Shown piece after piece: positions 33,550 through 43,590 of a stretch of DNA of 64,000 bases (its first letter is position 1; every line of letters starts with the position of its first letter). Source of the DNA: Terriglobia bacterium (lineage in GTDB: Bacteria > Acidobacteriota > Terriglobia > Acidiferrales > UBA7541); NCBI GenBank assembly GCA_020073485.1, contig JAIQFB010000001.1, positions 1 through 64,000 on the forward strand, written 5' to 3'. The translations under genes and the position numbers were made by a program. Below the pieces are notes generated by a model, which made no database searches, was not told the DNA's origin, and saw nothing but the letters and a program-made list of their open reading frames with translations.

Positions 33550-35184
33550 TCATGCGTTAGGTGCCTCAATCCGATACACCGGGTACCGCGCAGCAATCGC
33601 TGCGAAATCGGCAAGCGGCGCTCCTACGGGCAGCGGGAAGTGTTTGCGTCCGCTTGAGGCGATGCGCACATACTCTCGGAGTATTGGTGCCCGTTCCTCC
33701 GGCGGCACAGATACGAGACGCACGCGGACAGAGCCTCCGTGGGCAATCACCGCGTCGCCCTGCGCCGCCTCGATGTTGTGCACCCAATCAGAAATGGTGC
33801 CGAACATCGAGACGACGTACCGTTCTCCCTCGACAGTGGGGACCACAACGGCGTCCGCACGCGGCCGACCCGATACGCGATCGCGGACTTCGAGGGCGAA
33901 CCAGGAACGCGGCGGCAATCCGACCCGCGCCCACCAACAAAAGAACTGGCTAACCCAGTGGCCGAGCCACGTTGGACGGCGGTTACGGTAGAAGAGGCGA
34001 TTGAATGCGCTTCGTTCCGCAGGATCGGGTTCGGTGAAATGGGCCATCGGCTCTACTCTCTGCATCAACGGCTCCGTTTCCCGCAGGAACGATGCGTCGG
34101 CGGTGTCCAGGAGATCGCGAACATCAAACGCCGTCGCATTGGTCATCACGACAGTGCCGATCCCTTTTCCAGAATACAAGCGCATCATGCAGTGAAATCC
34201 TCCGCCTCCGCCCTCCTTGTAGAAGAAAGGGAGGCCGTCAAGAACTCCTGTGTGCCAACCGAGGGTCATTGGAACAGCCCCTCCTCGCGTCGTTTGCTGC
34301 TGGGTATAGAACATTTGCCGCGTTTCGTCTCCAAGCAGCACGGACCGATCACGGAGTTGGTCTTGAAGGAACTTGCCGAAACCCCTCACGCTCCCGACGA
34401 GTCCACCAAATGCCGGACCATTGAGATAGTGACTGCGGATTGCTAGCCACCTGCCAGCGTAATCACCGACTAAGTCCCGATCGATCAGAACTCCCTTCGC
34501 GAGATTCATCAATGAATATTTCTCCAAATAGCCGGTGGCCTGACAAGCAGGATCGGTTACTGCATATCCGAGTTCTCGCGGCTCAATCGCTAGTGGTCGA
34601 AGGATGTGCTCGGTGACGTAAGACGAAAATGTCTCGCCGCTCGCGCGTTCGATCACCTTTCCAAGCAACCAGTAGCCGATGTTTGAGTACGCGTACTTGC
34701 TACCGGGGGCGAACGACAGTCGCGGATGATCGTGCAGTACAGTCGCGAGTGCGGCATCCTCGTCGAAGTTCCCGTGACGCTCTGCCGGATGGACCCACCG
34801 CAAGGGTAGCGGATTCGGGATGCCGGAGGTGTGGGAGATGAGCTGTCTGACCGTGACATTCGGTCCGTAAGGCAGCGCATCGACGTATTGTTCTACCGGA
34901 TCGTCAAGACCAACTCGCCGGATCTCGACGAGTTGTAACACGGCGGCAGCGGTAATGGTCTTGCTCATCGAATACGCCATCAGCGTTGTCGCAGTATTTA
35001 CGGGCATCCGGCGGCGGATGTCCGCCCAGCCACTGTAGTGTTCAAACAACACACCCGTAGACATCGCTACGAGATACTGAATCCCCGGCGTCTTGGATGC
35101 CGTCGTGAGCGCGGTCAGATAGGAGTCGACGCGAGCGGCGCCAGTCGATAGCTGTTGCTGCATGATTTGGTGGTCAAGAGACAT
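33550..35184 (-). CDS. serine beta-lactamase-like hydrolase fused to a deazaflavin-nitroreductase-like domain
   Basis: 544 residues. Residues ~20-370 are a class-C beta-lactamase/esterase domain with SxxK in YSMSKTIT and the second motif YSNIGYWLLGKV. The C-terminal ~140 residues (GRPRADAVVVPTVEGERYVVSMFG ... PPEERAPILREYVRIASSGRKHFP) resemble the F420/deazaflavin-dependent nitroreductase (DUF385) fold. A single polypeptide carrying both is unusual. Starts 11 bases inside the end of the preceding gene, so the two are coupled. Function unknown. Confidence 0.8.
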   Translation of the reverse strand: MSLDHQIMQQQLSTGAARVDSYLTALTTASKTPGIQYLVAMSTGVLFEHYSGWADIRRRMPVNTATTLMAYSMSKTITAAAVLQLVEIRRVGLDDPVEQYVDALPYGPNVTVRQLISHTSGIPNPLPLRWVHPAERHGNFDEDAALATVLHDHPRLSFAPGSKYAYSNIGYWLLGKVIERASGETFSSYVTEHILRPLAIEPRELGYAVTDPACQATGYLEKYSLMNLAKGVLIDRDLVGDYAGRWLAIRSHYLNGPAFGGLVGSVRGFGKFLQDQLRDRSVLLGDETRQMFYTQQQTTRGGAVPMTLGWHTGVLDGLPFFYKEGGGGGFHCMMRLYSGKGIGTVVMTNATAFDVRDLLDTADASFLRETEPLMQRVEPMAHFTEPDPAERSAFNRLFYRNRRPTWLGHWVSQFFCWWARVGLPPRSWFALEVRDRVSGRPRADAVVVPTVEGERYVVSMFGTISDWVHNIEAAQGDAVIAHGGSVRVRLVSVPPEERAPILREYVRIASSGRKHFPLPVGAPLADFAAIAARYPVYRIEAPNA

Positions 35185-36538
35185 CCGGCTGGCGTCCGTG
35201 GGACGGAATAGCTGAGTAGAGTGCGTCTCTGAGTGCGACGTCTCGCGGGTCTCCGGTTAGCCGCGTTCCCATTTGACTCGTCACGTATGCGTAGCCGACC
35301 CCAGACGTTGGATCGGCAAAGCCAAGCGAACCACCTGCTCCAGGTGACCCAAACGAACTGGCGCCGCCGAAGGGCCATACACGACTAGGCTTCATGAAAC
35401 CCAGTGAAAACTGCACACCGTCGGTTTTCATGCATTCGTCGTAAAATCCGCGCCTCGGGGGAATGGCTGGGGCGGCCAACAGTTTCAGCGTCTCTTGCCG
35501 TAACCCCAACTCGCGCCCTCCAGTAGCGAACACACTATACGCGTGTGCAATCGCTTGGGCGGTGGCAACACCATTGCCGGATGGCACTTCGAGGTTGCGC
35601 GCGTAGATGCGCTGCGCGTCCTGGTAGATCCCGGTGCCGGGATTGATGTTTAGCGCCCGATAGATGTTCGAGCGAGGATTCATCGCCTCCAGTAGGAAGC
35701 GAGGTCCGAAGCCGCGCAGCATTTCGAGTAGAGTCGGCGGCGCTAGTGTCGCCAGACGCGAGTTCGGGATCACCTCAGGCAGCCGGATGTAGACGTCCTC
35801 GCGAAGGGGCGACGCGATCTCATCCTGGAAGAACTGTCCTAAGCTGCGATGTTGCGGGTCCACACGGCGTAACAACTCGCCTTCGTAAAAGCCGAGAGTC
35901 AGTGCGTGATACGCCTGTCGCGTCCCAGGTTCCCACGCTGGTTTTTGACGCGCGAGCACGACCGCCAAGCGATCAAGATCGGCGACGACGCTACGATCCA
36001 CAGGTTCGTTGAATGCGAATAAGCCTGCTTGATGAGCCAACAATTGGCGGACCGTGATTCGTTCCTTGTCGTTCTGTGCGAACTCCGGCCAGTACTCGCA
36101 CACCTTTTCTTCGTAGTCGAGCGAGCCCCGAGTATGAGCGATGGCGAGGGTCATCGCGGCCAGACCTTTAGTGGCTGAGTGGATCACGACCATCGTGTCC
36201 TGCTCCCAGGACTCGCCGCTCTTTTTATTTCGGATGCCGCCCCAAAGATCAACGACCTTCTCGCCGTGGACAAAGGCGCAACAGGCTCCGCCCAGCTCAC
36301 GTCGCCGAGCGAAGTTGTCAGCGAAGACATCGCGCACGACCTCAAAGCCTGGGCTGACGCGTCCCTGGATACCGAAACGCCCGACCTTTTCGCAGACCCG
36401 CGACTTTTCCGAAAGTGCGCTTTCGGCCATCAGCGATGGTTTCATGTTCGGATTCATGATCTCGCTGAAATCCGACTGAAGTAAGTGACCTGCATCACGC
36501 ACAGTGATGGGCGCTGGCGCGACAGGCTCTGACTTCAC
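35174..36538 (-). CDS. class-C beta-lactamase-like serine hydrolase (EstB type)
   Basis: Up to 454 residues. SxxK motif in IHSATKGLAAMTLA, Tyr motif YHALTLGFYEGEL, and a GGRELGLR region; no signal peptide visible, so probably a cytosolic esterase or peptidase rather than a true beta-lactamase. Start is uncertain: GTG 36538 is the longest, ATG 36457 is a good alternative. Followed by the paralogous hydrolase fusion. Confidence 0.85.
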   Translation of the reverse strand: MKSEPVAPAPITVRDAGHLLQSDFSEIMNPNMKPSLMAESALSEKSRVCEKVGRFGIQGRVSPGFEVVRDVFADNFARRRELGGACCAFVHGEKVVDLWGGIRNKKSGESWEQDTMVVIHSATKGLAAMTLAIAHTRGSLDYEEKVCEYWPEFAQNDKERITVRQLLAHQAGLFAFNEPVDRSVVADLDRLAVVLARQKPAWEPGTRQAYHALTLGFYEGELLRRVDPQHRSLGQFFQDEIASPLREDVYIRLPEVIPNSRLATLAPPTLLEMLRGFGPRFLLEAMNPRSNIYRALNINPGTGIYQDAQRIYARNLEVPSGNGVATAQAIAHAYSVFATGGRELGLRQETLKLLAAPAIPPRRGFYDECMKTDGVQFSLGFMKPSRVWPFGGASSFGSPGAGGSLGFADPTSGVGYAYVTSQMGTRLTGDPRDVALRDALYSAIPSHGRQPDVS

Positions 36539-37172: not shown

Positions 37173-37181
37173 AGAGTGGAA

Positions 37182-37577
37182 ATGATGAAGATGCTCAAAA
37201 TCTTGGTGGCGGAAGACGACCGATTGCTGGCCCAATATTACGTAACACTTCTTAGCCAGTGGGATTGTGAAACGGTTGTCGAACATAGAGGCATAGACGC
37301 GATTCGCCGGGCGGCCACATTCCGACCAGATGTTGCTCTCCTCGGCGTCGTGATACCAGACATGGGCGGCGTTGAAGCTGCTATCAAGTTGCTGGAAATC
37401 TGTACCGGAACAAATATCGTCTTCGTTACGGAGTCGGTTCCTCCCAAGGCGTTAGAGCAACTGGCGGCGCAGGGCTATAACTTCCCGACGCTTCCTGCGC
37501 CCTTTACCCGCGAGGAGTTGCACGCCGTGGTGTTTGGACAGTTTTGCGATAAGCCACTGTCAGGAAAGAGCGTTTGA
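37182..37577 (+). CDS. receiver-domain protein lacking the phospho-acceptor Asp
   Basis: 131 residues, single REC fold: acidic pocket VAEDDRLLA and the beta-3 segment VALLGVVIPDMGGVEA. The Asp that is normally phosphorylated (DVMMPxMDG) is Gly55, and the conserved Lys before the final PF is Ala (LPAPFTREEL). It cannot be phosphorylated in the standard way and is likely a pseudo-receiver. GTG 37176 is an alternative start. Ends 18 bases past the E1-like gene's stop on the other strand. Confidence 0.8.
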   Translation: MMKMLKILVAEDDRLLAQYYVTLLSQWDCETVVEHRGIDAIRRAATFRPDVALLGVVIPDMGGVEAAIKLLEICTGTNIVFVTESVPPKALEQLAAQGYNFPTLPAPFTREELHAVVFGQFCDKPLSGKSV

Positions 37578-39056
37578 AAGGCCGTGTAGGGCACGCAGCT
37601 TGTCGATATTCTTCCGACGGCCACAGATACAATTAGGCCTGCGGGCCTGGGGCAGCTCTAGGCCGAACGCGGGACCGCGTAGGAAATCGAATTGAAAGCG
37701 AGGCTCCAGCTTCGATTTCCATCCACACACGTGAGCTAACGTTTCGGCCATCACCATACACGCGCTGAAGCATGCAACAAATGGAACGGAAGGCTCAAAG
37801 TTGTCTTCCTGCTGCTTCTCAGAAATCTTTTGCGCCATGGCCTGCTGAACCACCGAACAGATCGGGTGCCCCAAACGCAGTCTCAAAGCTTCTCGCTTTT
37901 CCGATGGTGCTGCTTCCACGTCTGCCTCTGTTACAAGTGAGTTCGGATCTTGTAGACGGCTCGCTGATAGCCCGGTAACCTCTCTCTGCACCTCTTCCGC
38001 CGGAGGGCCTGTGGGCGTTTGAAACAAGCAGATTAGGCAGGCAGTGTCTCCCCGCCAGGGATGGCTGCTCACTTGGCAAGTGAAATCACCAATCGCTCCG
38101 TCAATCACAATATCCGGCCACAACGCACGTTGAACCTCTTGACGAACATCGGTGTTGTCCAAGCCGTTCACAACGATTGCAGGATACTGCTTTAGGTCCC
38201 TTGCGAAATGCTCAAAAGTTCCCATGAATCCCTCTGCCCGGATGCCGACTCCTTCGAGAGTTGCCGTTAGATAAGGGGCCTTGGGCTTTTTCAAGTCCTC
38301 TGGCCCAATGAGAAGGCAAGTACCCAAATTCTCCGCTCCGTATTCTTCTCGATCAACCACAGTTACCTTCCCCGTGAACGGCAATCGCGAGATGAGATGA
38401 ACAATGCCGTTGCCAATTGCCCCTGCTCCAACGACCAGCAGGTCGCGTGTAAGTGTTTCGGGGATTTCCGGGCCGTAATCTGACGCTGTCTCAGCGTAGT
38501 CTCGCAAGGAGAAACTGAAGCCGTTCAACATCTCGCCGCGTTCAGGTCTTAAGCTGATGAGTCGCTTGAATACCTCCCCGACACCTAGGCATGCAGCAGC
38601 CAGTGCTCCAATAGGGTTGTTAATATCGCACTCACTCGAAACATCAGTAGCTCCCGATGTGACGCGCACGACAAACCCGTTAGAATTTATCGTTGTCCAT
38701 GGCAATTCGGGATGTGCCTTCGCGCCAACCGATAACACCGCATCGAATTGTTTGAAATCATCCAATTCGTCCAGAAATTCGATTTTCTTACCGAATGTAA
38801 TATGTTCAGCAAGATCCTCAGCTTCTTCCCTCAACTCATTGCTCTGCTTGGGTAAATAGACAGCGACGTTTGGACAGATTTTCACTGCAAGGCGGACTGA
38901 ATCTAGAAAGCATTCCCGGCCATTCGGGAGCGATAGCAGCTCTGGTTCGCCCGTCAGCAGAATTGTCTTATTTATGAATCTGTGGCGATCTTCAGCTAGA
39001 TCACCTAGCTGCTCGGCCGCTTTTTGTGGGCGGCTGTACGCGAGTTCAGAATCCAT
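37560..39056 (-). CDS. E1-like ubiquitin-activating adenylyltransferase (ThiF fold)
   Basis: 498 residues, starting ATG 39056 inside the end of the JAMM gene (11-base overlap). Nucleotide-binding GAGAIGNG (residues 210-217), then VDREEYGAENLG, KKPKA and GLDNTDVR, which match an adenylating E1 domain. The N-terminal ~200 residues look like a second, degenerate domain. C-terminal CICGRRK and TACLICLFQ give possible zinc or catalytic cysteines. Final gene of the Ubl-E2-JAMM-E1 operon; would activate the Ubl with ATP. Confidence 0.85.
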   Translation of the reverse strand: MDSELAYSRPQKAAEQLGDLAEDRHRFINKTILLTGEPELLSLPNGRECFLDSVRLAVKICPNVAVYLPKQSNELREEAEDLAEHITFGKKIEFLDELDDFKQFDAVLSVGAKAHPELPWTTINSNGFVVRVTSGATDVSSECDINNPIGALAAACLGVGEVFKRLISLRPERGEMLNGFSFSLRDYAETASDYGPEIPETLTRDLLVVGAGAIGNGIVHLISRLPFTGKVTVVDREEYGAENLGTCLLIGPEDLKKPKAPYLTATLEGVGIRAEGFMGTFEHFARDLKQYPAIVVNGLDNTDVRQEVQRALWPDIVIDGAIGDFTCQVSSHPWRGDTACLICLFQTPTGPPAEEVQREVTGLSASRLQDPNSLVTEADVEAAPSEKREALRLRLGHPICSVVQQAMAQKISEKQQEDNFEPSVPFVACFSACMVMAETLAHVCGWKSKLEPRFQFDFLRGPAFGLELPQARRPNCICGRRKNIDKLRALHGLSNALS

Positions 39057-39585
39057 CCTCGGCTCCAACAGTAATGAACGGAACATGCGTGTCCGGGACA
39101 ACTTGGATGCGGTGCTCAACTTCAGCCACGCCCAATCGGACGTACCCCTGGTTTTCAGTGAAGACATGGACACCCCATCGCTGAATGGGAGCCGACGACA
39201 TGCCATATTCAGGAGCCACAAGTGACAGGTAATAAGGGGTCTTGATGCCATAGGCCCGGTCGGTTGGAGAAAGATCAAGGCCATAGCCGGGTCCGTGAGA
39301 ATGCACCTGCCCGATCAAACGGGCATTGTTCTTGATCGCCAAGTCCGTGACCTCATTGAGCAGTTCCGCAGCGATCTGAATCTGGGCCGGATATTTTTCT
39401 ATACCGGGTCCACGCAGTTTGACCAAGTGAGTCACTTCGGCAGCCGCGTCTTTGTCGCGGCCGAGAAACAACACGATTCCCTCGTTGCCCTCGCGTCCAT
39501 CGATAGCCATTTCTGCGAGCGCATCAGGTATCACCGTTGCGGGAATTCGCCAAGCCTCAACTTGTGAGAAATACGAGTTCGTCAT
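39046..39585 (-). CDS. JAMM/MPN+ metalloprotease of the Ubl operon
   Basis: 179 residues. Zinc-protease signature GQVHSHGPGYGLDLSPTD (His95, His97, Asp109) with an upstream glutamate in GNEGIVLF. Such proteins mature ubiquitin-like modifiers or remove them from targets. ATG 39585 overlaps the E2-like stop (ATGA). Middle of the four-gene operon. Confidence 0.88.
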   Translation of the reverse strand: MTNSYFSQVEAWRIPATVIPDALAEMAIDGREGNEGIVLFLGRDKDAAAEVTHLVKLRGPGIEKYPAQIQIAAELLNEVTDLAIKNNARLIGQVHSHGPGYGLDLSPTDRAYGIKTPYYLSLVAPEYGMSSAPIQRWGVHVFTENQGYVRLGVAEVEHRIQVVPDTHVPFITVGAEDGF

Positions 39586-40019
39586 TTGAACCTACCTTGG
39601 TAATGGTCGTCGAGTTCTTCTTGCAGCTGCCGCAAAACCCATAGGAGAGGGTTCCCGTTTGGATTCCATCTGAAACGCGGATCGGCCTTCCATTCGGGGT
39701 GCAAGATGAAGCCTTCCAGACACCAGTTGACGCAGGCGTCAAGACTTTGTGGCCTGAAACCACGAGCGATAGGCCATGCCTGCGGCAAGTCGAGCCGTCC
39801 AGTCGCCGGGTCACGAAATTTCAGAGACGGCGGCTCATCCGAATATTTAGCCCATAGTAGACGCGCCTGAAATCGCTCGTTAGGCGCACTTGCTGGTGAC
39901 ATCGTAGCCAATACTTCGAGGTCTCCTGGCATCTCTAGCGCCCATCTTGTGGCATCTGAGACGCTCATCGCCTCTTCAAAGTCATCCTTCAAATTGAGCT
40001 TCGATAGTTCGTCGCTCAT
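39582..40019 (-). CDS. E2-like conjugation protein
   Basis: 145 residues with an RWD/UBC-like order: PPSLKFRDPATGRLDLPQAWP, then GFRPQSLDACVNWCLEGFILHPEW with Cys96 and Cys100 as candidate catalytic cysteines, then a helical end LLWVLRQLQEELDDHY. Overlaps its neighbours by four bases on each side. Judged E2-like mainly from its position between Ubl and JAMM/E1 genes and from this pattern. Confidence 0.7.
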   Translation of the reverse strand: MSDELSKLNLKDDFEEAMSVSDATRWALEMPGDLEVLATMSPASAPNERFQARLLWAKYSDEPPSLKFRDPATGRLDLPQAWPIARGFRPQSLDACVNWCLEGFILHPEWKADPRFRWNPNGNPLLWVLRQLQEELDDHYQGRFK

Positions 40020-40300
40020 TGTCCTTGTGTTACATGCTGGCTTAGCTTCAACTCCAGCGTGTGTTTGTCGCCAGCCACTTGACCGAGGGTCTCGCCGAGA
40101 TTCTCAAGTGGCGTTTTGTTGTGAAAGAGTGTGTAGGTATAGTTGGTGCCGTCCGGGTGCTGACCTTCCTTCAGCCCGAACGCATTGAGTACATTAGTCT
40201 TGAGCGTTCCGACCGTCTCGTGGCGACTGGCATGATCTTGCTCGTAGGGCTTACTCGCAGCCGCGTAGTGCACGATTACTTTCAAGGTTCCTTCAGTCAT
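40016..40300 (-). CDS. ubiquitin-like (beta-grasp) modifier protein
   Basis: 94 residues. Predicted beta-grasp: start TLKVIVHYAAA, a helix VGTLKTNVLNAFGLKEGQ, then YTYTLFHNKTPLENLGETLG and KHTLELKLSQHV. It ends ...TQGQ, so removal of a single C-terminal Gln would expose a terminal glycine for activation. ATG 40300; ATGA overlap into the E2-like gene. First gene of the operon. Confidence 0.75.
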   Translation of the reverse strand: MTEGTLKVIVHYAAASKPYEQDHASRHETVGTLKTNVLNAFGLKEGQHPDGTNYTYTLFHNKTPLENLGETLGQVAGDKHTLELKLSQHVTQGQ

Positions 40301-40394
40301 GTCGTTTTGTCCTCCGCTTCAGTGTTGCGTAAATTATGGCTGGGATTAGAATTCCCACCCCTGTATGGGACCACCGCTGTTGCCGCCACAGTCG

Positions 40395-40495
40395 TCCCTA
40401 TTTGGGAATGCTCGGCCTCGGCCCGGACTGGACACGCGAGAATGGAAAAATTTGTAGGACAGCCCTTGTCACATCATGCAACAATCCGAGCATTC
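40395..40495. promoter_or_regulatory. divergent promoter region with inverted repeats
   Basis: Within the 232-base gap between the Ubl and sigma genes, GAATGCTCGG (40406-40415) pairs with CCGAGCATTC (40486-40495), a perfect 10-bp inverted repeat 70 bases apart, and TCCC-N5-GGGA lies at 40395-40407. A GGGATTAGAATTCCC element also lies at 40343-40357. These are candidate operators shared by both operons. Confidence 0.45.
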
Positions 40496-40532
40496 TCGTT
40501 ACTAGGCAGCGGAAAAGGAGTTGTTGGGTCCC

Positions 40533-41183
40533 ATGGATCAAAGTGCGGTGCCCAACGCGCCAGCTGCGAAGGTCGCAACCCGCGGCGAGATCATTCAGGC
40601 GATTGAGGCGCTCACGGACGTGGATTCCGAGCGCCTGAACCAGGTTGCCATTAATCGAATCCTCCGCATCGGGCGTCGAGCAGCAAATGGTCGTACACAT
40701 GAAGACCTTCTTCAGGAAGCGATGGCACGAATCCTGGACGGTTCGCGCCATTGGCATCCGGAAAGGGTGAAGTTTGTTCCATATTTCGTGGGGGGCATGT
40801 GGAGCATCGCAAGTGAATGGGCTGGTCACCGCAAGAGGAACGCCAACGCACCGGAATATGCCGTCCTTGAATCTCAAATAACAAAAGAAGATGAGGATGG
40901 TGACACGCACTCGCCCTTTGCCGAGACGAAAACTGCCGATCCGAATATTGAGGAACAAATGGTTGACGCGGACATAGAGGCTGAGCGGAAGGCCCTCGCT
41001 GACGAAATCGAAGGACATTTTGTGCAGGATGAAAATGCCGCGTATGTGCTTATGGGCTGGCAGGATGGGATGGATGGGCCTGCGATACAGAAAGCGTTCG
41101 GATTCAGCGAGACGACCTATAGAACCATCGTTCGACGTATTAAGCGAAACTCACAGAGGATCATGGAAGAACGCTATGGTTGA
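40533..41183 (+). CDS. sigma-70-family (ECF-like) sigma factor
   Basis: 216 residues from ATG 40533 (GGAAAAGGAG at 40511-40520; in-frame TTGs at 40521 and 40524 are alternatives). Region 2 traces: GRTHEDLLQEAMARILDGSRHW and YFVGGMWSIASEWAGHRKR. C-terminal region-4-like helix-turn-helix: AYVLMGWQDGMDGPAIQKAFGFSETTYRTIVRRIKR. Divergent from the Ubl operon and overlaps the next gene, so it probably controls one or both operons. Confidence 0.75.
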   Translation: MDQSAVPNAPAAKVATRGEIIQAIEALTDVDSERLNQVAINRILRIGRRAANGRTHEDLLQEAMARILDGSRHWHPERVKFVPYFVGGMWSIASEWAGHRKRNANAPEYAVLESQITKEDEDGDTHSPFAETKTADPNIEEQMVDADIEAERKALADEIEGHFVQDENAAYVLMGWQDGMDGPAIQKAFGFSETTYRTIVRRIKRNSQRIMEERYG

Positions 41184-41625
41184 TAAAGCAAGCAGTGGTT
41201 CAGAGCGATTGGGCAGACTCATCGACCGACTAGCAGAGTATGTCCAGAATGCGCCCGGAGGCGAGCTACTGGAAGATGCCCGTCAAGAAGGACGCGATCC
41301 GGCTAAAACGACCATGCGGGTCAAAGGTTTGCTGTTGCGGGCGGTGAAGAACCACCAACAGGGAAAGCTGATGAGGGCCGAAGAGGAGTACCAGCGAGAG
41401 GTTGCCGCAATGAAGGCTCGGCCCATAAACCTGCCCCCAACCCCAGAACAGCGCCGGACCCTGCTTTCGACACTTTTCTCCCAGCAGCCACAACTTAAGG
41501 CAGCGTTCACTTTTCAAAATCGCGGTTTCTCCGAACTCACCGACCAGGACGTGGAAAACCATCTCCACAAACTTGCGCTTCTCGGAATTCTGGACGAAAT
41601 GCAACTTTGGGAAGACGATGAATAG
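41176..41625 (+). CDS. hypothetical protein between sigma factor and metallopeptidase
   Basis: 149 residues, helical and charged, beginning MVDKASSGSERLGRLIDRLA and with KNHQQGKLMRAEEEYQREV. ATG 41176 overlaps the sigma gene stop by eight bases and the end overlaps the metallopeptidase by eight bases. Position makes it a candidate anti-sigma factor or protease substrate. No family recognised. Confidence 0.65.
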   Translation: MVDKASSGSERLGRLIDRLAEYVQNAPGGELLEDARQEGRDPAKTTMRVKGLLLRAVKNHQQGKLMRAEEEYQREVAAMKARPINLPPTPEQRRTLLSTLFSQQPQLKAAFTFQNRGFSELTDQDVENHLHKLALLGILDEMQLWEDDE

Positions 41626-42454
41626 CCCACTAATAAATACACCTGACCAATTGCTTGACGACCTTGGCATCACGGAGCCTAGCCAACTCAAGATCGAAGC
41701 GATCGCGTATCACTGTCAAGCGGTTATCCTGTATGAGCCGCTTTCAGGATGCGAGGCAAACATAGTTGGTAAAGGGGACCGAGCGATCATCACGGTCGAT
41801 AGCAACGCCATTCCCACCCGGCAACGCTTTTCAGCTGGTCACGAACTGGGACATTGGATGAGAGATCGTGGTCAAATCGCGTTCGGTTGTTCCCAAAGGC
41901 AAATAGACTCTGAATGGACCGCAAACAATCCAGAAACAAGGGCCAATCAGTTCGCAAGTGACCTCCTCCTGCCTTCCAAACTCTTTGTTCCTCTTGCGAA
42001 GGGTCGGCCGATCACGATGGAGACAGTCCGCGAACTTAGCCGGACGTTCCAAATGAGCTTGACTGCCACGGCGATCAAGCTCATTCGTTTCGGCTCCTTC
42101 TCCTCGATGTTGGTGTATTACGAGAATGGCAATCGGAAGTGGTTTATTCCGTCCTCGTCAGACTTGCCAAAGCGGTTATGGCCGTCAAATCAACCGAACG
42201 AGGGGACGGCTACAGCCGGGCTATTGTCTGGCGAAATCAATCAGGAAGTGGTCAGCGACGCACGTGCTGACAAGTGGTTCGATATTCAGAATGCGGATCA
42301 CTATTATGTCCGCGAGAGTTGCTTCTGTAGCGGTCCAGAATCGGTCGTTACACTTCTTTGGTGGGAGGACGAAGCACAGATCATCGACCTCCAGGAGGAA
42401 GAAGAACGTAATGCTGTCCGTCGATCCGATCGACGCCCGGCAGACGAAGATTGA
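41618..42454 (+). CDS. ImmA/IrrE-family metallopeptidase
   Basis: 278 residues. Zinc-protease motif HELGHW (His75, Glu76, His79) and the typical ETRANQFASDLLLPS segment that follows, with the third ligand Glu. ImmA/IrrE proteases cleave repressors to switch on mobile-element or defence genes. C-terminal ~130 residues have a separate domain with SCFCSGPESVVTLLWWED. Operon partner of the sigma factor and adjacent to the Ubl operon. Confidence 0.88.
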   Translation: MNSPLINTPDQLLDDLGITEPSQLKIEAIAYHCQAVILYEPLSGCEANIVGKGDRAIITVDSNAIPTRQRFSAGHELGHWMRDRGQIAFGCSQRQIDSEWTANNPETRANQFASDLLLPSKLFVPLAKGRPITMETVRELSRTFQMSLTATAIKLIRFGSFSSMLVYYENGNRKWFIPSSSDLPKRLWPSNQPNEGTATAGLLSGEINQEVVSDARADKWFDIQNADHYYVRESCFCSGPESVVTLLWWEDEAQIIDLQEEEERNAVRRSDRRPADED

Positions 42455-42882: not shown

Positions 42883-43590
42883 GTGACTGCAACGCCGAAC
42901 ACACACCCCAAGATCCCGCTTCGGACGGGCTTCCTCCGATCCTTTATTCGATGGTTTGTCATCGGCGTGGTGCTTCTTTGGTCGCTTACCGCGCTGATCC
43001 TTGTGGCCGCCAGGTGGGTCGACCCACCGACAACCGCGGTGCACATCCAGCGCCGCTTGCAGGCCTGGATTCACCACACGCCGTATCGCGAACGCTACAA
43101 ATTCATTCCGCTCAGCCAAATCTCGGCCGATCTCCAGCACGCTGTAATCGCCGCAGAGGACACGCACTTCTACCAGCACCATGGATTCGATTGGCACGAG
43201 ATCCAAATCGCTGCCGAAGACGATTTGGAAGGCGATCGCACTCGCGGAGCTTCCACCATTACGCAGCAACTCGTAAAAAACCTATTCTTTGGAACGGGCC
43301 GCTCTATCCTCCGCAAGGGCGCAGAGGTCACACTGGTACCGGTGGCCGAATTCGCCCTCGGCAAACAGCGCATTCTGGAGATATACCTCAACGTGGTCGA
43401 ATGGGGACCTGATATTTATGGTGCAGAGTCGGCGTGTCGTTACTACGACGAAACCGCAGCCCGAAATATCGGTCGGCAACAGGCGGCACGGCTCGCTGCA
43501 ATTCTGCCGGCTCCCCTGAAGCGACGACCCGAGCGCATGAATAACTACAGCGCAATTATCCTTAAGCGGATGGGCCAAATGGGTTGGTAA
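42883..43590 (+). CDS. mtgA: monofunctional biosynthetic peptidoglycan glycosyltransferase
   Basis: 235 residues from GTG 42883. N-terminal membrane helix (about 24-45) and the GT51 motifs EDTHFYQHHGFDW, RGASTITQQLVKNLFF and EIYLNVVEWGPDIYGAE. Polymerises lipid II glycan chains at the outer face of the inner membrane. Full length for MtgA. Confidence 0.93.
   Translation: MTATPNTHPKIPLRTGFLRSFIRWFVIGVVLLWSLTALILVAARWVDPPTTAVHIQRRLQAWIHHTPYRERYKFIPLSQISADLQHAVIAAEDTHFYQHHGFDWHEIQIAAEDDLEGDRTRGASTITQQLVKNLFFGTGRSILRKGAEVTLVPVAEFALGKQRILEIYLNVVEWGPDIYGAESACRYYDETAARNIGRQQAARLAAILPAPLKRRPERMNNYSAIILKRMGQMGW

Follow-up and report, generated by a model that had tools for sequence, protein, structure and literature searches.

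We analyse a locus at positions 37,560 to 42,454 of a 64,000-nucleotide (nt) stretch of Terriglobia bacterium DNA (positions 1 to 64,000 of contig JAIQFB010000001.1; this whole stretch is called the window hereafter), in which a four-gene minus-strand operon for a putative ubiquitin-like conjugation pathway lies divergent from a three-gene operon that we propose to be its switch. How self-harming immune systems stay off and then get switched on is the wider question to which such a locus belongs. An earlier reading of the letters alone (the sequence-only reading) had placed seven genes here, with overlapping starts and stops on the minus strand. All seven are intact open reading frames (ORFs), arranged as follows, and the overlaps are present.

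40016..40300, minus strand: predicted ubiquitin-like protein (Ubl), 94 residues, ending ...QHVTQGQ; intact ORF
39582..40019, minus strand: predicted E2-like protein, 145 residues; intact ORF
39046..39585, minus strand: JAMM/MPN+ deubiquitinase-like protease, 179 residues; intact ORF
37560..39056, minus strand: E1-like enzyme, 498 residues, with an N-terminal domain and a ThiF adenylation domain
40533..41183, plus strand: predicted extracytoplasmic function (ECF)-like sigma factor, 216 residues from ATG, or 220 from TTG at 40521
41176..41625, plus strand: all-helical protein of 149 residues, proposed anti-sigma factor and CapP substrate
41618..42454, plus strand: CapP M78 metalloprotease with a C-terminal GAF-like region, H75-E76-x-x-H79 and E106

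Minus-strand neighbours overlap by 4 nt (Ubl/E2), 4 nt (E2/JAMM) and 11 nt (JAMM/E1), and both plus-strand junctions, sigma/149-residue protein and 149-residue protein/CapP, by 8 nt. Apart from the sigma gene and the gene for the 149-residue protein, no gene separates CapP from the Ubl operon. The E1 frame is open farther upstream and was listed as an ORF of 574 residues, which starts too early; the start was placed at the ATG at 39056, where it overlaps the stop codon of the JAMM gene.

The putative ubiquitin-like conjugation operon and its relatives

The E1-like protein contains a ThiF domain (Pfam, 1.5e-15) and matches both the PADLOC model of BilD (1e-24) and the solved BilD structure (PDB 8tyz), the latter at 5e-19 across residues 32-492 and, in a profile comparison, at 2.4e-24. 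Alignments of its relatives mark cysteines 340, 343, 476 and 478 as probable zinc ligands, with C247, C400 and C429 also invariant. The JAMM protease in turn matches BilC (2.7e-8 against PADLOC, 1e-4 against PDB 8tyx) and keeps E35, H95, H97, S106 and D109 in a three-sequence alignment. Its motif, HSHGPGYGLDLSPTD, is spaced one residue over the usual HxH-x7-S-x2-D, and the relative in genome G133 is normally spaced. The sequence-only reading had quoted this motif together with GAGAIGNG in the E1, and both are present. In Bil systems the gene order bilA-B-C-D corresponds to Ubl-E2-deubiquitinase (DUB)-E1. On the strength of the E1/BilD and JAMM/BilC matches and of this shared order, the operon is classed as a Bil-related system on a distant branch, not as a Bil member, and the Ubl-E2-JAMM-E1 assignment of the sequence-only reading is supported by the same evidence.

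Three other genomes have all four genes in this order, at loci designated L070, L031 and L163, which rules out chance ORFs. Locus L070, on a contig of an acidobacterial metagenome-assembled genome, has an E1 53% identical to that of the window, and carries the same sigma, 149-residue protein and CapP triad with its own promoter pair. At L031 (genome G133; E1 43-44% identical) the operon is accompanied by a divergent CapH-like helix-turn-helix (HTH) gene and a CapP-like protease, and at L163:6158-10512, on the Deinococcus aetherius plasmid pDAETH-1 (E1 47% identical), it is divergent from a single HTH-M78 fusion regulator. Identity to more distant plasmid E1s is only about 25%. The four operons appear to form a distinct subfamily, and with this locus a new branch is added to the ubiquitin-like systems related to Bil. 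An E1 relative of the window type was found neither in the five other genomes of the genus nor, at a strict cut-off, among 395 further genomes of the phylum, which makes horizontal acquisition of the locus probable. A scan of viral contigs with the E1 likewise returned no relatives.

The two small proteins have no significant family match in Pfam, TIGRFAM-type or PADLOC models, including the BilA and BilB models. The Ubl, 62% identical to its counterpart in L070 and about 40% to those in L031 and L163, ends in a QG that is invariant in the four sequences and is followed by a tail of 0-1 residue; its profile matches to ubiquitin-like domains, and the comparison of ubiquitin with the Ubl profile, are non-significant. 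In the E2-like protein, whose relatives in the same operon slot are 51-68% identical, C96 is the only invariant cysteine and H107 is invariant as well. Its match to a yeast UBC2/RAD6 profile is in register but weak (E 0.33), and its AlphaFold2 (AF2) model, built from two sequences, is poor (predicted local distance difference test, pLDDT, 47), with the order helix, three strands, helices; alignments of other E2-like proteins were too divergent to inform on it. The assignments as Ubl and E2 are thus putative ones, drawn from the BilA-B-C-D-like operon position, the invariant QG of the former and the invariant C96 and H107 of the latter.

The sigma, 149-residue protein and CapP triad

The protease of the divergent operon, which the sequence-only reading had recognised as belonging to the ImmA/IrrE family, is more specifically a CapP, a point missed there. 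It matches the PADLOC capP model at 1.2e-58 over residues 10-250, that is, over its full length including the C-terminal sensor region, as well as Pfam Peptidase_M78 (3.6e-13) and PDB 7t5t (4.5e-8, or 8.9e-16 with a profile). Residues H75, E76, H79 and E106 are invariant among its relatives, and in alignment R68 and F71 are the equivalents of R85 and F88 of PprI, which contact single-stranded DNA (ssDNA; PMC10904395). The first gene of the operon is predicted to encode an ECF-like sigma factor: TIGR02937 (sigma70-ECF) matches residues 47-210 at 7e-6, which is under its curated cut-off, Pfam Sigma70_r2 gives a weak match (9e-5), and in an alignment of 30 relatives Sigma70_r2 is found in eight and r4_2 in two; the promoter pairs described below also speak for this assignment. 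The 149-residue protein belongs to no known family in Pfam, TIGRFAM-type or PADLOC models, and neither it nor the sigma factor matches a capH model. Its AF2 model (pLDDT 82) is all-helical and places R116, which is near-invariant (46 of 47 sequences), in a loop spanning residues 112-117; a search for a cleavage motif shared between CapH-like proteins and the family of the 149-residue protein gave nothing convincing.

A scan seeded with CapP only, using one genome per species, returned 78 loci. In all, a sigma gene is combined with CapP in 59 loci, one of them on an IMG/VR contig from a different scan. Clustering at 85% identity left 47 loci with sigma, 149-residue protein and CapP in the same order and on the same strand, their genes mostly overlapping. 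These triads occur in at least eight phyla, among Acidobacteriota, Actinomycetota, Nitrospirota, Rokubacteria, Bdellovibrionota, Desulfobacterota-type bacteria, Pseudomonadota, Planctomycetota and Verrucomicrobiota. In a whole-genome search of the phylum, moreover, the five best foreign CapP relatives all have the gene for the 149-residue protein by direct search, as do several weaker ones by eye.

The triads are linked to immune operons. After dereplication, 43 triads have 2.5 kb or more of upstream sequence; an E1-type gene lies divergently upstream in 21 of these and within 6.5 kb downstream in none, and the E1 cargos comprise separate JAMM and E1 genes, JAMM-E1 fusions, and DUF6791-ThiF with DUF6527. 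Cargos that lack an E1 are mostly immune. They include CD-NTases (L079, L080 and L090, three examined cases with SAVED-HNH effectors, and also L086), SMODS or DncV-like cyclases (L085, L119 and also L078, which carries an E1 too), an Argonaute with a DpnII-like nuclease (L066), AbiEii (L076), TIR (L121, of the L116 cluster), an Eco57I-type methylase (L095) and a patatin (L112). Two further triads, at L094:4697-7495 and L099:2058-7660, are divergent from Tn7-like TnsA/TnsB cargo with TnsA-like PF08722 and Mu-transposase C-terminal domains, and there the triad may control transposition. The triads nearest to that of the window, L065 and L066 (CapP about 60% identical), have other cargos, and the L070 triad is more distant (50%) despite the same Ubl cargo; module and cargo are thus reshuffled. 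A second point missed by the sequence-only reading is that the triad appears to serve as a controller for immune cargos of many kinds and is not peculiar to this Ubl operon.

This recurrence bears on the proposal, raised in that reading as what might undo it, that the sigma/ImmA genes came to lie beside the Ubl operon merely through independent insertion. Probable horizontal acquisition, with no E1 relative in the five congeneric genomes, would be in keeping with such an origin, as would the finding of the same Ubl operon with other regulators. We nevertheless consider it very improbable and strongly disfavour it: the linkage recurs across cargos and phyla and is always divergent (21 versus 0), the two operons share a promoter pair, described below, that is unique in the genome, and L070 repeats the whole arrangement, so that a homologous operon does carry the sigma/ImmA module.

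A complete sigma, 149-residue protein and CapP triad is also present on an IMG/VR contig classed as viral (L142:1-1819), the sequence of which starts at the sigma gene. About eight triads (L081, L083, L084, L087, L092, L101, L113 and L124) have upstream divergent operons that are unassigned and are candidate unknown defence operons. In a few of these, as in the operons of several CBASS (cyclic oligonucleotide-based antiphage signalling system)-linked triads, the first gene encodes a small protein whose C terminus carries a DPFPP-G or DTFPPRG-like motif.

Paired promoter-like elements and the proposed switch

The gap between the two operons in the window contains a perfect 10-bp inverted repeat (GAATGCTCGG/CCGAGCATTC), each arm of which holds the second block of a promoter-like element.

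40407..40434, minus strand: promoter-like element facing the Ubl operon, TGTCCAGT-N12-CGAGCATT, with its second block in the inverted-repeat arm at 40406-40415
40467..40494, plus strand: promoter-like element facing the sigma operon, TGTCACAT-N12-CGAGCATT, with its second block in the other arm, at 40486-40495

Across loci, the intergenic consensus TGTCCGaa-N12-nnnGCATA takes the form of a mirror-image pair of two-block elements, each facing outward toward a gene start, always in that orientation and with near-constant spacing between the blocks. The strict pattern pair is found in 15 of 59 loci (0.04 for shuffled sequences, 0.02 for random windows taken from these loci), and a weight matrix applied to windows anchored on the gene for the 149-residue protein scores above 20 in 36 of 60 loci, compared with 0.2% of shuffles. 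The second blocks of a pair agree at 6.6 of 8 positions within a locus versus 4.8 between loci (none of 20000 permutations as high), and second-block similarity tracks sigma similarity (Mantel r 0.28, p 0.0008); the first, -35-like block shows no such tracking (Mantel p 0.55). In the 5.05-Mb genome the exact pattern occurs twice, both times in the window gap. Since about 0.6 occurrences would be expected by simple counting, the weight lies on the pairing within the gap and on a regulon seemingly confined to it. The pair is absent from the corresponding gaps of L031, with CapH/CapP, and L163, with the HTH-M78 fusion; one cargo is therefore associated with three M78-based controllers, of which the sigma version alone has the pair.

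We consider it likely that the locus is a Bil-related conjugation operon under the control of a divergent sigma/149-residue protein/CapP switch operating as follows. In the resting state, the 149-residue protein would keep the ECF-like sigma factor inactive. CapP, activated by DNA damage or phage-derived ssDNA, would then cut the 149-residue protein, probably at the loop around R116, and the freed sigma factor would take RNA polymerase to a mirror-image pair of promoters, TGTC-N16-CGAGCATT, between the divergent operons, switching on the Ubl operon and, by positive feedback, the sigma operon itself. The E1 would activate the single-domain, Gly-ending Ubl, the E2-like protein would transfer it and the JAMM protease would trim or remove it, with defence as the presumed outcome.

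Several precedents are consistent with these steps. In published systems ssDNA activates CapP, which cuts the repressor CapH (PMC10904395 and PMC13373217), and in type III CRISPR the protease CalpL cuts the anti-sigma factor CalpT, thereby freeing CalpS (PMC12751052). The role of CapP-cut anti-sigma factor is proposed for the 149-residue protein because its gene takes the place of CapH, its model is all-helical and its near-invariant R116 lies in a loop; in the predicted model, the position of R116 resembles that of DdrO R118, a cleavage-loop residue needed for ssDNA-stimulated cutting (PMC10904395). The sequence-only reading had supposed that the protease cleaves the 149-residue protein or another repressor and thereby frees the sigma factor to turn on the Ubl pathway. 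The conservation of the triad beside immune operons, and the mirror-image elements facing both operons, strongly support this idea of a sigma/protease switch.

Alternatively, the paired TGTC...GCAT elements could be operators of a repressor, with either the 149-residue protein or the sigma-like protein acting as a DNA-binding repressor, so that CapP would relieve repression and no alternative-sigma promoter would exist. Elements bound by dimeric repressors are often mirror images, the gene for the 149-residue protein occupies the operon place of CapH, and the known substrate of CapP, CapH, is itself a repressor (PMC13373217). Operators would not, however, readily account for two-block units with near-constant spacing that always face outward toward a gene start, or for a second block that co-varies with the sigma sequence; in addition, the model of the 149-residue protein has no match to a DNA-binding fold, and no sigma-70-type promoter was found in the window gap. 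We regard this explanation as unlikely.

Somewhat less probable still, in our estimation, is that the triad controls the operon through other wiring, CapP cleaving the sigma factor or the 149-residue protein serving as a co-activator or adaptor instead of an anti-sigma factor. What leaves room for it is that the anti-sigma function is a proposed one and that the fold of the 149-residue protein matches nothing trustworthy. The order of the genes speaks against it, sigma then anti-sigma being a usual one, as do the location of the sole near-invariant residue of the 149-residue protein in a loop, as in the PprI cleavage-site loop of DdrO, and the Calp precedent.

A number of observations also weigh against the protease-released sigma factor that we favour. 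The sigma domain matches are weak; no similarity of the 149-residue protein to CapH or to an anti-sigma factor could be detected, and neither Foldseek nor VIA-align gave its model a trustworthy PDB fold match (a row for the PhyR-NepR anti-sigma complex was far from significant and was not used). The weight matrix was trained on the loci that it scores, which makes its null optimistic, and the strict pattern was chosen after the sequences had been seen. Moreover, 18 of 60 loci fall under a score cut-off of 14, some of them probably because a single matrix is unfit for divergent sigma factors. With regard to outcome, protection from phage is not known for Bub operons either (PMC13373217).

Known systems and neighbouring genes

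The Ubl operon shares with Bil the Ubl-E2-DUB-E1 order, an E1 that aligns to BilD over its full length and a JAMM protease that matches BilC, but its Ubl and E2 match no PADLOC BilA or BilB model and its Ubl is a single short domain of 94 residues. The ubiquitination-like Bub operons likewise adjoin controllers, with 219 of 544 having CapW or CapH+CapP and 59 having CapK+CapS, and no sigma-factor controller is named for them in the consulted passages of PMC13373217; this comparison is by description, and the PDB matches of the window E1 and JAMM are named Bil, not Bub.

Among the controllers themselves, CapH+CapP has the same protease family over its full length, including the C-terminal sensor domain, also adjoins immune operons and has the same presumed ssDNA trigger. 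In the window, a sigma factor and a helical 149-residue protein replace the HTH repressor CapH, and paired promoter-like elements are present. PprI(IrrE)-DdrO of Deinococcus similarly combines an M78 protease with a GAF-like domain, and the HEXXH motif and the equivalents of R85 and F88 are kept in the window CapP; DdrO, however, is an HTH repressor, and the window locus has none. The CalpL-CalpT-CalpS system (PMC12751052) resembles the proposed switch in logic only, an immune signal leading a protease to cut an anti-sigma factor and free the sigma factor, but the Calp protease is a Lon-SAVED protein triggered by cyclic tetra-adenylate (cA4), whereas that of the window is an M78 CapP, presumably triggered by ssDNA and divergent from its target operon.

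We think it fairly probable, if with less assurance than for the window locus, that these triads represent a general class of immune controller, in which CapP releases an ECF-like sigma factor held by a helical protein of a new anti-sigma family, the sigma factor fires a bidirectional promoter, and the cassette, present in at least eight phyla, is swapped among ubiquitin-like, CBASS, prokaryotic Argonaute, AbiE, TIR and Tn7-like cargos. Such a class is not among the CapW, CapH+CapP and CapK+CapS controllers named in PMC13373217, which work by relieving repression. If the proposal is true, a protease-released sigma factor would make the control positive and amplifying, and its promoter code could be read from the sequence. 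The presence of the same switch beside many different immune operons suggests a previously unrecognised route to turn bacterial immunity on, and one Ubl operon type has been fitted with three different protease-based controllers. In a literature search, no account of CapP together with a sigma factor came up, although most subscription papers and preprints were outside that search and an earlier description is possible. In practical terms, a sigma, 149-residue protein and CapP triad with a TGTC-N16-nGCAT pair constitutes a tag for spotting unknown defence operons.

The genes flanking the locus are of other kinds. A stand-alone receiver domain (Response_reg; window 37176-37577) is convergent with the E1 gene and overlaps its 3' end by 18 bases, and just outside the locus, on the minus strand at window 33550-36538, lie two adjacent serine beta-lactamase/esterase-like genes, as read from ORF translations. 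On the other side the locus is adjoined by an MtgA-like transglycosylase gene (window 42883-43590), a second copy of which, 89% identical, is found in the same genome at G000:C39:178847-179548.

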